Shown here one piece after another: positions 11,896-14,983 of a stretch of 57,547 bases of DNA (the first letter of the stretch is position 1; each line of letters opens with the position of its first letter). A program made the position numbers and the translations under genes. A model generated the notes under the pieces. It was not told the DNA's origin, did no database searches, and saw nothing but the letters and a program-made list of their open reading frames with translations. Source of the stretch: Candidatus Kuenenia stuttgartensis (GTDB lineage Bacteria; Pseudomonadota; Alphaproteobacteria; SMXS01); assembly GCA_943329845.2 (NCBI GenBank), contig CALQFM020000021.1, forward strand, positions 1 through 57,547, in the 5' to 3' direction.

Positions 11896-12038
11896 TCTGT
11901 ACGCTACCGGGTCGTGATGCCGCTGTGGCCGCGAACATAATCATGCGCCCGCCCCGCCGCAAGCGCACAGGTCCAGGCACCCCCAGGTTATCTCGAAGGA
12001 GCAATCAATCCCCTTGCCTTGCATCTTCATATATTCGT

Positions 12039-12058
12039 ATATTCGTATCTATGAATAT
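12039..12058. promoter_or_regulatory. Probable SqrR/BigR-type operator (ATTC-N8-GAAT)
   Basis: The bases at 12039-12058 form a 20-bp imperfect palindrome, ATATTC then eight bases then GAATAT. It contains ATTC-N8-GAAT, the consensus I recall for the sulfide-responsive repressor SqrR. A second half site ATATTCGT directly precedes it at 12031-12038. The site overlaps the ATG of the regulator gene at 12051, so binding would block initiation of its own operon. The match is by eye; binding is inferred. Confidence 0.68.
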
Positions 12059-12374
12059 AAATCCGGATATCAGCCTCGATGACATGAAGGAAAACGCGGG
12101 CCGCGCCTGTGATTTCCTTCGCTCGATCGCGCACCCGCAGCGGCTGCTCGTCCTGTGCCAGCTGTCCCAGGCCGAAAGGCCGGTCGGCGAACTGGCCGGG
12201 CTGCTGGGCATGCGCCAGTCGACCCTGTCGCAGCACCTGGCGCGGCTGAAGGCTGAAGGCCTCGTGGCCGCACGGCGCGACGGCACCTCGATCCGATACT
12301 CCCTGGCACGGACCGAGATTCTCCCCGTGATCGAAGTCCTTTACGGCGTATTCTGCAGGGCAGAAGGCAAATGA
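12051..12374 (+). CDS. ArsR-family persulfide-sensing repressor (SqrR/BigR/YgaV-like)
   Basis: 107-residue winged-helix repressor. The recognition helix is in MRQSTLSQHLARLKAEGLV and the wing in RRDGTSIRYSL. Cys36 (in LLVLCQL) and Cys102 (in YGVFCRA) are 66 residues apart, the same spacing as the redox pair in SqrR, BigR and YgaV, which form a disulfide or tetrasulfide on exposure to sulfane sulfur and leave DNA. An extra Cys20 is also present. Arsenic-type CxC ligands in the recognition helix are absent. It overlaps the SulP gene by 4 bases and probably represses the whole sulfur operon. Confidence 0.88.
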   Translation: MNINPDISLDDMKENAGRACDFLRSIAHPQRLLVLCQLSQAERPVGELAGLLGMRQSTLSQHLARLKAEGLVAARRDGTSIRYSLARTEILPVIEVLYGVFCRAEGK

Positions 12375-14122
12375 TGGATCGGCTGGCGCGCTATGTCCCG
12401 ATCCTCTCCTGGGGACGCGCCTATTCCGCGCGCGATCTGCCGGGCGACCTGACTGCCGGGCTGATCACCGCGATCATGCTGGTTCCCCAGGCCATGGCCT
12501 ACGCGATGCTGGCCGGCCTGCCGCCGCAGATCGGACTGTATGCCAGCATCGCCCCGCCGATCCTCTACGGCATCTTCGGATCGAGCCGGGCGCTCGCCGT
12601 CGGCCCGGTGGCCATCGCGTCGCTGATGACGGCGACGGCGCTTTCCGCCCTGTCGGCTCCCGGCAGCGCGTCCTATATCGCCAACGCTCTCGTCCTGTCG
12701 CTGCTGATCGGTCTGATACTGCTGGTGCTGGGCATGGTGCGCGCCGGATTCCTGGTGAATTTCCTGAGCCACCCGGTGATCTCCGGCTTCACCAGCGCCG
12801 CCGCCATCCTGATCGTCATCAGCCAGCTCAAGCTCCTGATGGGCATCGACATTCCCCGTGGGGAAGCCATCGCGACCATCGTCAACGTGGCCCGCCATGC
12901 CGGCGGGACCAATCCGGTCACGCTGGCGATCGGCGCCGGCGCCATGGCGATCCTGCTGATGATGCGAGGGCCGCTCGCCGCGTTGCTCCAACGGCTCGAG
13001 GTGCCTCCTGTCACGGCCCAGTTCATTACCCGGTCAAGCCCACTGCTGGCGGTCGTGCTCGGCATCGCCGTCACTGCCGGCTGGCACCTCGCCGAGACAT
13101 CCTCCGTCGCCATTGTCGGCGCGATTCCAAGCGGCCTTCCATCTCTGACCGTGCCAAGCGCGGATATGACGATCTGGCGGACCCTGTTGCCATCGGCGGC
13201 GCTGATCGCGTTCGTGAGCTACCTGGAAAGCGTGTCGGTTGCCAAGGCACTCGCCGCGAAACGGCGGCAAAAGGTGGACGCGGACCAGGAACTCATCGGC
13301 CTGGGCGCCGCCAACATCGCCGCCGCATTCACCGGCGCAAGTCCGGTCGCCGGCGGATTCGCCCGGTCCATGGTGAATTTCGCCGCCGGCGCCAACACCC
13401 CGCTTGCCTCCATCCTGACCGCGCTGTTGCTGGCGGTGTCCGTCGTATTCCTGACGCCGTTGCTGCATTATCTCCCTCAGGCGGTGCTGGCCGCGACCAT
13501 CGTGGTGGCGGTCGTCCAACTCATCGACCATCGAAGCTTCCGCCGGACCTGGCAGTACAACAAGGCGGATTTCGCAGCGCAGGCCGTGACGTTTCTGGTC
13601 GTACTGATCGTCGGGGTAGAGACCGGCATCATCAGCGGCTTGGTCCTGTCGCTGCTGTTGTATCTTTGGCGAAGCAGCCGTCCCCACTTCGCGATCGTCG
13701 GTCAGGTTGGCGACAGCGAGCACTATCGCAACGTCAGGCGACACAAGGTGCGGACTGACGCGGCGGTGCTGCTGTTCCGGATCGACGAGAACCTGTACTT
13801 CCCGAACGCCGGCTATCTCGAGGAAAGCCTGCGGGCGGAAGTGGCCGCGAACCCGGAGATCACCGACGTGGTGCTGATTCTCAGCTCCGTCAGCCTCGTC
13901 GACGCAAGCGCGCTCGAGACGCTCGATGAACTGCGCGAGACCCTGCATGACGCCGGGATCACGCTCCACCTCGCCGAGGTGAAGGGTCCCGTCATGGACC
14001 GGCTGCAGCGCACATCGTTCATCGAGAACCTGGCTCCAGGGCAGGTTTTCCTGTCGACCCACGATGCAGTCGAATATTTGAGGGAACGGCTCTATGCCGA
14101 TCCATACGGATCGGCGATCTGA
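12371..14122 (+). CDS. SulP-family anion permease with STAS domain
   Basis: 583-residue inner-membrane transporter of the SulP/SLC26 family, usually carrying sulfate, bicarbonate or related anions. The family N-terminus DLTAGLITAIMLVPQAMAYA is followed by about 10-12 hydrophobic segments to residue 430. A C-terminal STAS domain begins near VLLFRIDENLYFPNA and contains VVLILSSVSLVDASALETL. The start overlaps the regulator's stop (ATGA). In BigR-type operons a permease of this or the TauE class is common, so sulfate or sulfite movement is a reasonable inference; the actual substrate is unproven. Confidence 0.93.
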   Translation: MMDRLARYVPILSWGRAYSARDLPGDLTAGLITAIMLVPQAMAYAMLAGLPPQIGLYASIAPPILYGIFGSSRALAVGPVAIASLMTATALSALSAPGSASYIANALVLSLLIGLILLVLGMVRAGFLVNFLSHPVISGFTSAAAILIVISQLKLLMGIDIPRGEAIATIVNVARHAGGTNPVTLAIGAGAMAILLMMRGPLAALLQRLEVPPVTAQFITRSSPLLAVVLGIAVTAGWHLAETSSVAIVGAIPSGLPSLTVPSADMTIWRTLLPSAALIAFVSYLESVSVAKALAAKRRQKVDADQELIGLGAANIAAAFTGASPVAGGFARSMVNFAAGANTPLASILTALLLAVSVVFLTPLLHYLPQAVLAATIVVAVVQLIDHRSFRRTWQYNKADFAAQAVTFLVVLIVGVETGIISGLVLSLLLYLWRSSRPHFAIVGQVGDSEHYRNVRRHKVRTDAAVLLFRIDENLYFPNAGYLEESLRAEVAANPEITDVVLILSSVSLVDASALETLDELRETLHDAGITLHLAEVKGPVMDRLQRTSFIENLAPGQVFLSTHDAVEYLRERLYADPYGSAI

Positions 14123-14132
14123 GGAGGCAAAC

Positions 14133-14561
14133 ATGGACATCGTCAACTTCACGCCGGTTCCGGCGCTGATCGGCGGCGCGCTGATCGGCCTGGCATCGAT
14201 CCTGCTGCTGTTGCTGACCGGCCGCATCGCCGGCATCAGCGGCATCCTGGGAGGCCTGCTGCCGCCCACGCGGGGCGACACCACCTGGCGGCTCGCGTTC
14301 ATTGCCGGGCTGATGCTCGGCGGACTGGGTTTCGTTTACCTGGGCGATCCCTCCGCCATCAGCATCGAGGCGGACACACCGTTGCTGGTCGCCGCCGGGC
14401 TGCTGGTCGGCTTCGGCACGCGGCTCGGATCGGGTTGCACCAGCGGCCATGGCATCTGCGGCATCGGGCGCACGTCGCCGCGCGGACTCGTCGCGACCTG
14501 CATATTCGTTGGCATCGGCATGGTGACCGTGTTCGTCACCCGCCACATCATCGGGAGCTGA
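14133..14561 (+). CDS. YeeE/YedE-family sulfur transporter, first half (PmpA-like)
   Basis: 142-residue membrane protein with four to five hydrophobic segments and the conserved loop GSGCTSGHGICG, whose cysteine is essential in characterised YeeE proteins for thiosulfate uptake. GAGGAGG at 14121-14127 gives a strong ribosome site for ATG 14133. It ends two bases before the next gene, which supplies the other half of the transporter. The pair corresponds to the PmpA/PmpB arrangement of BigR operons, where a split YeeE moves a reduced sulfur compound across the inner membrane. Confidence 0.9.
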   Translation: MDIVNFTPVPALIGGALIGLASILLLLLTGRIAGISGILGGLLPPTRGDTTWRLAFIAGLMLGGLGFVYLGDPSAISIEADTPLLVAAGLLVGFGTRLGSGCTSGHGICGIGRTSPRGLVATCIFVGIGMVTVFVTRHIIGS

Positions 14562-14563
14562 TC

Positions 14564-14983
14564 ATGGGCCGCCCTCTCGTGCCGCTGCTGTGCGGTCTCA
14601 TCTTCGGCGCCGGTCTTGCCGTATCCGGCATGGTCAACCCGGCCAAGGTACTCGGCTTCCTCGACGTCACCGGGCAATGGGACCCGAGCCTTGTGCTGGT
14701 GATGGCGGGAGGCGTCGCTGTGTTCGCCCTCGGCTTCCTGCTGGTGAAGCGTTCAGCCAAGCCGCTGCTGGCAGCCAAATTCGAGATTCCGACCCGCCGC
14801 GACATCGATCCAAGGCTGGTTGCCGGCGCGGTGCTGTTCGGCATCGGCTGGGGTCTCGCGGGCCTCTGCCCCGGCCCGGCCCTGACTGGCCTCGCCTTCG
14901 GAATAACCAAGGTCTACATCTTCGTCGCCGCCATGGTGGCGGGAAGCCTGGCCTATGGGCTGTGGATGAGATTCAGGGGTTAA
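14564..14983 (+). CDS. YeeE/YedE-family sulfur transporter, second half (PmpB-like)
   Basis: 139-residue membrane protein with GLCPGPAL near residue 105, the second-half signature of split YeeE transporters (the first half has GCTSGH). Hydrophobic segments include LLCGLIFGAGLAVSGMV and VMAGGVAVFALGFLLV. It starts two bases after the stop of the first half, so the two are translated together. Its stop codon overlaps the convergent GNAT gene by 4 bases, ending the operon without room for a long terminator. Confidence 0.9.
   Translation: MGRPLVPLLCGLIFGAGLAVSGMVNPAKVLGFLDVTGQWDPSLVLVMAGGVAVFALGFLLVKRSAKPLLAAKFEIPTRRDIDPRLVAGAVLFGIGWGLAGLCPGPALTGLAFGITKVYIFVAAMVAGSLAYGLWMRFRG

Follow-up and report, generated by a model that had tools for sequence, protein, structure and literature searches.

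A predicted SqrR/BigR/YgaV-type repressor heads an operon of putative sulfur transporters, with no sulfide-oxidation enzymes beside it, in the alphaproteobacterial order SMXS01

We analysed a 57,547-nucleotide stretch of DNA (the window; contig CALQFM020000021.1 of assembly GCA_943329845.2), which is contig C21 of the genome G000 (3.68 Mb in 107 contigs, completeness rated 100%). The window carries an ArsR-family repressor gene followed by genes for a SulP permease and for PmpA and PmpB, two short proteins that resemble the halves of a YeeE-type transporter (Table 1). Given the overlap of arsR and sulP and the gaps of 10 bp between sulP and pmpA and 2 bp between pmpA and pmpB, the four genes are likely to be transcribed together. 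The dapA gene lies upstream of arsR and is divergent, and a GNAT acetyltransferase gene lies downstream of pmpB and is convergent. The original prediction described the locus as an all-transport version of a bigR operon, in which the usual enzymes are missing. The gene content agrees with this: by profile matches, arsR is followed by sulfur-type transporters (SulP, then the split YeeE pair), and the contig has no match to persulfide dioxygenase (PDO, or Blh; E ≤ 1e-40), to sulfide:quinone reductase (SQR) or DUF442 (E ≤ 1e-5), or to rhodanese (E ≤ 1e-5). With no PDO gene among its members or in the 7 kb on either side of sulP, the locus is not a detoxification operon of the bigR type.

Table 1. 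Genes and predicted regulatory elements of the operon (window coordinates)
Feature	Position	Strand	Remarks
-35-like hexamer TTGCCT (predicted)	12014..12019	+	18-bp spacer to the -10-like hexamer
Additional upstream half-site ATATTC	12031..12036	+	direct repeat, 8 bp before the half-site of the palindrome
-10-like hexamer TATATT (predicted)	12038..12043	+	overlaps the operator; would put the mRNA start on or beside the ATG
Operator palindrome ATATTC-N8-GAATAT (predicted)	12039..12058	+	ATTC-N8-GAAT core; overlaps the arsR ATG at 12051
ArsR repressor, SqrR/BigR/YgaV-type, Cys36/Cys102	12051..12374	+	107 residues; family profiles and alignments
SulP (SLC26-type) anion permease with STAS domain	12371..14122	+	4-bp overlap with the end of arsR; profiles
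PmpA/YedE1-type half of a YeeE transporter	14133..14561	+	142 residues; conserved Cys102 (GSGCTSGHG)
PmpB/YedE2-type half of a YeeE transporter (DUF6691)	14564..14983	+	139 residues; conserved Cys102 (GLCPGP)

The repressor has the ArsR winged helix-turn-helix, scoring 50.6 bits against PF01022 (HTH_5; cut-off 22) and 79.3 bits against NF033788 (cut-off 55). Within a sample of ten genomes of the order (G000 to G009, of which G006 is 78% complete and another 84%), it was found in nine, the same nine that carry PmpB; neither was found in G008. Its only cysteines are Cys20, Cys36 and Cys102. In alignments with solved relatives and with Escherichia coli YgaV, Cys36 and Cys102 fall opposite cysteines, consistent with a redox pair, and both are kept in all nine orthologs of the order, Cys20 in only four. 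Arsenic and cadmium sensors of the ArsR family carry a close cysteine pair; no such pair can be formed by the three cysteines here, and we set a metal sensor aside. Elsewhere, 36 other ArsR open reading frames (ORFs) from related SulP loci, a count that omits the window and locus L005, comprise 24 with both cysteines, six with the first only and six with neither. The 66-residue spacing, which had been attributed to SqrR, BigR and YgaV alike, is that of BigR (Cys42/Cys108; PMC5823870) and of Acinetobacter baumannii BigR (C34/C100; PMC7315123); the pair itself stands for YgaV too, where the spacing is 67 (C31/C98; PMC9774250) and the comparison is off by one. Members of the family described with such a pair respond to sulfide or persulfide (PMC5823870, PMC7315123, PMC9774250). 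Judged by these alignments, the window protein is a member of the SqrR/BigR/YgaV subfamily, as had been suggested, though we do not file it as BigR.

The predicted operator covers the start of arsR, where an ATTC-N8-GAAT palindrome had been pointed out. The longer form, ATATTC-N8-GAATAT, is the sole match in the window with at most one mismatch, and none of 100 dinucleotide shuffles had any. Its core is identical to the published SqrR recognition sequence (PMC9774250), and its place at the gene's own promoter fits, at the level of sequence, the SqrR/BigR/YgaV subfamily. Seven of the nine orthologs (G000, G002-G006 and G009) have the exact core at an identical position relative to the start codon, which it covers; G007 has one mismatch (GTTC replacing ATTC), and in G001 an exact core is shifted 8 bp upstream, ending 2 bp before the ATG. 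Codon 2 of arsR is AAT in 9/9 orthologs, despite the rarity of AAT (16 of 95 asparagine codons in twelve window ORFs), which suggests that the constraint is on the DNA and not on the protein. The 70 bp around the arsR start have a GC content of 31-41%, against 65% for the window. Positions 12031-12050, which include the additional half-site, match the palindrome pattern with two mismatches.

The predicted -35/-10 pair, at the same offset from the ATG, is the top-scoring pair in six of the nine orthologous upstream regions (with two ties). Six Shine-Dalgarno-like words were looked for in the 22 bp that precede the ATG, and all nine orthologs lack them. This, along with an mRNA start expected from the promoter hexamers at or beside the ATG, predicts a leaderless mRNA, and the operon promoter is probably of that type. 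BigR has been reported to recognise a -10 region (PMC5823870). In the titles and abstract beginnings of the open-licence literature, we recognised no leaderless SqrR-type promoter.

SulP scores 452.9 bits against TIGR00815 (cut-off 380.45) and its STAS domain 58.8 bits against PF01740 (cut-off 22.6), which places it in the SulP/SLC26 family; among solved proteins its best match is 'Sulfate transporter 4.1, chloroplastic'. PmpA reaches 25.7 bits against PF04143, slightly below the cut-off of 27; in a profile search it matched TsuA over that protein's C-terminal half (E = 1e-9). PmpB scores 148.7 bits against DUF6691; neither profile nor model searches gave it a match among solved structures, the N-terminal half of TsuA included. 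The kinship of PmpB to a YeeE-type half is proposed from DUF6691 and from the published suggestion that PmpA and PmpB are halves of a YeeE-type transporter (PMC11582611). The two adjacent short genes (142 and 139 residues) each encode a conserved cysteine, as expected of a split YeeE: Cys102 of PmpA is present in 34 of 35 relatives, as is its Cys109, and Cys102 of PmpB in 36 of 36. These counts cover ORFs shorter than 190 residues (35 of 43 PmpA matches and 36 of 42 PmpB matches), with the window's own proteins counted apart. The cysteines of such halves are essential in YedE1E2 and TsuA (PMC10812762, PMC11582611). In Cupriavidus, YedE1E2 stimulated the import of zero-valent sulfur, not its export, and both conserved cysteines were needed; a Sinorhizobium pair likewise sped zero-valent sulfur uptake (PMC10812762).

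The arrangement is widespread in the order, with ArsR-PmpA-PmpB in nine of the ten genomes and the full ArsR-SulP-PmpA-PmpB in eight; G002 has no SulP in the operon. The neighbourhood is also kept, with a GST-like gene in 9/9, dapA in 8/9 (the window counted) and the GNAT gene in 6/9. Beyond the order, we sampled 80 of at least 587 confirmed SulP loci, taken from titled records, and added the window. A gene was counted as present when it passed a score threshold and lay no more than 7 kb from sulP; with many short contigs in the sample, the absences are upper bounds. ArsR and PmpA/PmpB lie near SulP in 24 of these 81 loci, 22 of which also carry PDO. PDO is lacking only from the window and from L005, the contig of which is identical to one of G006. 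Both belong to the same lineage, and in the loci sampled the enzyme-free form is therefore a lineage trait. The types of component are known, and no ArsR-SulP-PmpA-PmpB operon without PDO was recognised from titles and abstract beginnings in the open-licence literature; the enzyme-free combination kept across the lineage appears to be a new arrangement. A related ArsR is encoded in 469 plasmid records, five of which were examined (one of them unannotated), and an enzyme-poor relative occurs on a Pseudomonas plasmid with ArsR, two YeeE-like genes, DUF2892 and OsmC.

Known systems share parts of this arrangement. The bigR operon of Xylella and Agrobacterium has the same type of repressor with the same cysteine spacing, but includes Blh and a TauE-related transporter (PMC5823870), neither of which we found in the window operon. 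The A. baumannii BigR operon, yeeE-yedE-pdo2 (PmpA/PmpB of Serratia), likewise joins a pair-bearing repressor to a split YeeE/YedE; it includes PDO2 and the available text of the source does not mention SulP, whereas the window has SulP and no PDO (PMC7315123). In Cupriavidus pinatubonensis an ArsR/SmtB gene adjoins yedE1-yedE2 and, as in the window, no adjacent PDO is mentioned in the available text; unlike the window, SulP goes unmentioned there, and the sensor is not characterised (PMC10812762). The Diaphorobacter sp. HDW4A plasmid (NZ_CP049911.1) has ArsR, YeeE/YedE, DUF6691 and SulP genes in the same direction, but places a TIGR01244 sulfur transferase gene before sulP and a metallo-beta-lactamase-fold gene divergent from arsR. 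L017, from the metagenome-assembled genome of an uncultured alphaproteobacterium, shares the gene order ArsR-SulP-PmpA-PmpB with the window but has, divergent beside arsR, a gene for PDO (221.9 bits) that is truncated where the contig stops.

From its relatives we infer persulfide sensing and sulfur import by the window operon, and think it rather likely that a persulfide-sensing autorepressor controls the import of zero-valent sulfur through PmpAB, accompanied by anion transport through SulP. The reduced ArsR dimer would sit on ATATTC-N8-GAATAT, covering the -10 hexamer and the start codon, and so block the promoter. Persulfide or polysulfide would join Cys36 to Cys102 and release the repressor, whereupon arsR-sulP-pmpA-pmpB would be transcribed as one unit. 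PmpA and PmpB would together make one YeeE-like transporter that carries zero-valent (sulfane) sulfur to the cytoplasm by way of the conserved cysteines, and SulP would move a linked inorganic anion, for which sulfate, sulfite or a similar ion is our guess. The original prediction left export and uptake of reduced sulfur side by side. The YedE1E2 work leads us to favour import (PMC10812762): the Cupriavidus and Sinorhizobium pairs speak for uptake, and the export half of that statement did not hold for YedE1E2.

Several observations weigh against this model. Sensing persulfide and then importing more sulfane sulfur would be odd as detoxification unless the sulfur is consumed, and PDO was not found at E ≤ 1e-40 in G001, G003, G008 or G009, of which all except G008 carry the operon. 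The structural models are weak (mean predicted local distance difference test score 61.6 for PmpA and 78.6 for PmpB) and gave no Protein Data Bank match with E ≤ 0.001, a lack that is not evidence of a different fold, since each half was folded without its partner. The pmpA/pmpB genes of Hyphomicrobium denitrificans did not respond to thiosulfate (PMC11582611). Exact ATTC-N8-GAAT was not seen in the 60 bp upstream of ygaV or of three plasmid-borne, reference-like arsR genes, so the motif is not universal. Finally, the repressor scores 76.5 bits against the NCBIfam BigR equivalog NF040642, below the cut-off of 155. None of seven other proteins reaches 155 either: YgaV has 59 bits, a G007 ArsR that lacks the cysteine pair 81.6, and five ArsR proteins of related loci 81.9-111.8. 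As the pair-less protein outscores both the window ArsR and YgaV, the model does not separate proteins with the pair from those without it.

An alternative is that the operon serves export and detoxification, with the transporters expelling sulfite, thiosulfate or sulfane sulfur when persulfide rises and SulP as the main exporter. In its favour, PDO, which produces sulfite, or DUF442/SQR lies near SulP in 61 of the 81 sampled loci, and a sulfite transporter is among the products of the bigR operon (PMC5823870). We nevertheless consider it unlikely. YedE1E2 gave no help to the export of zero-valent sulfur, the G002 operon keeps ArsR-PmpA-PmpB with no SulP, and G000 has no SQR or DUF442 match at E ≤ 1e-5 with a profile built from eight DUF442-SQR proteins, a profile with which SQR in G002, G004, G005 and G007 scores more than 660 bits, DUF442 adjoining.

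It is also conceivable, if rather improbable, that the repressor senses another thiol-reactive signal, such as peroxide, quinone, nitric oxide or heme, and that the operon acts against redox stress by way of the sulfane sulfur in the cell. In favour of this, solved HlyU proteins have these cysteines too, oxidative stress in E. coli was lowered by YedE1E2 (PMC10812762), and no full SQR was found in five operon-bearing genomes (G000, G001, G003, the 78%-complete G006, and G009). Against this stand the partner genes, which are sulfur-type transporters, and the responses to sulfide or persulfide of the described Cys-pair members. As a separate observation, weak partial SQR matches (28-58 bits) occur in six genomes of the order (G001, G003, G004, G006, G007 and G009) and not in G000; those in G003:C2, G004:C1, G007:C63 and G009:C138 lie within 3 kb of soxZ, so these four genomes may encode another sulfide-oxidising flavoprotein. 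Four of the ten genomes have SoxZ, and G000 is not among them; the 14 control genomes were empty, and the four matches indicate that the search works.

The original prediction further suggested that the enzymes might be in trans under the same repressor and could be sought through additional ATTC-N8-GAAT sites near sqr or blh, and in G000 this found no support. An orphan PDO gene lies on C31 and rhodanese domains are encoded on C52, C29, C26 and C8. Allowing up to two mismatches to ATATTC-N8-GAATAT gives 24 sites in G000, three of them in the arsR promoter, 16 inside ORFs (called by length and by third-position GC content) and five outside. None lies on C31, C52, C29 or C8, and the site on C26 is 20 kb from the rhodanese and within an ORF. 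Four orthologous PDO loci of congeners (L164-L167) also have no site. That one repressor governs sulfide-oxidising enzymes elsewhere in G000 is thus very doubtful, even though the G004 site described below, the division of G000 into 107 contigs and a promoter on C92 that falls off its contig speak for it, given the lack of SQR/DUF442 in G000, the absence of boxes at the PDO and rhodanese genes and at the SQR loci of G002, G005 and G007, and the local repressors of the latter, which lack both sensor cysteines. The product of the C92 gene (L125:3071-4348) joins a metallo-beta-lactamase protein to a rhodanese domain at its C-terminus and so resembles a PDO-rhodanese fusion; the gene reaches the end of the contig, beyond which its promoter falls.

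Some of the other G000 sites deserve mention. The exact site on C2 was rejected as a regulon target, as it lies inside an Xre/MbcA/ParS antitoxin ORF beside a RES-domain gene; near position 95,350 of the same contig (L085:219-1892), an ArsR-family gene with a cysteine-rich C-terminal tail stands beside the RES-domain and antitoxin genes. A palindrome, ATATTCCAATT(T/A)GGGAATAT, is found at G000:C5:50752-50771 (L086:1501-1520) and at G007:C58:14859-14878. The C5 copy is an exact site 74 bp before a helix-turn-helix gene, and from this position and the near identity of the inner bases in G007 we read it as that gene's own operator, probably a look-alike of the SqrR box. A one-mismatch box at L124:5488-5507 (G000:C42:10487-10506), between a 4Fe-4S ferredoxin-like gene and thiC, may be a candidate target of the repressor. 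A metallo-beta-lactamase gene about 4.3 kb from that box was not counted as PDO (44 bits, 31% identity over half the query).

The congener G004, assembled in two contigs, differs from the others at its PDO-DUF442-SQR locus. No ArsR was found there, and a one-mismatch box at G004:C2:709755-709774 (L163:5756-5775) precedes PDO, its end 74 bp from the presumed start codon. This genome has three sites with at most one mismatch, two at arsR and this one, and a reversed control gave none; such a site arose in 0.15% of 2000 simulated 320-bp stretches with the composition of the G004 locus, a figure uncorrected for the several loci inspected. Control of PDO-DUF442-SQR in trans by this repressor is plausible in G004, which provides good, single-genome evidence that the repressor can take over an SQR locus. 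The corresponding loci of G002, G005 and G007 (L161, L162 and L160) have their own ArsR and no such box. In place of the two sensor cysteines, these local ArsR proteins have Ser-Cys at the first site, with the cysteine one residue later. They carry a further cysteine some ten residues ahead of the second site, and the two are perhaps a shifted pair.

Returning to the import model, an operon that brings in its own inducer would form a positive loop if neither PDO nor another consumer removed the sulfur. Sugar operons that import their inducer offer an analogy. We put forward as a tentative possibility that the operon is a self-amplifying switch for sulfane-sulfur uptake, in which the persulfide sensor has been turned from detoxification to sulfane-sulfur acquisition or antioxidant loading in a lineage where SQR is often missing; in G004 the repressor also appears to have captured the sulfide-oxidation genes.

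The contrast between G004 (a box and no local ArsR) and G002, G005 and G007 (a local ArsR and no box) suggests how a sulfide-oxidation locus may switch repressors. If the import model is right, persulfide sensing would be separated here from persulfide oxidation, in a lineage that keeps the sensor, the operator and the transporters with no enzymes beside them. The cargo of PmpAB and SulP in vivo would then become testable, as would the question of whether a persulfide response serves uptake or detoxification.

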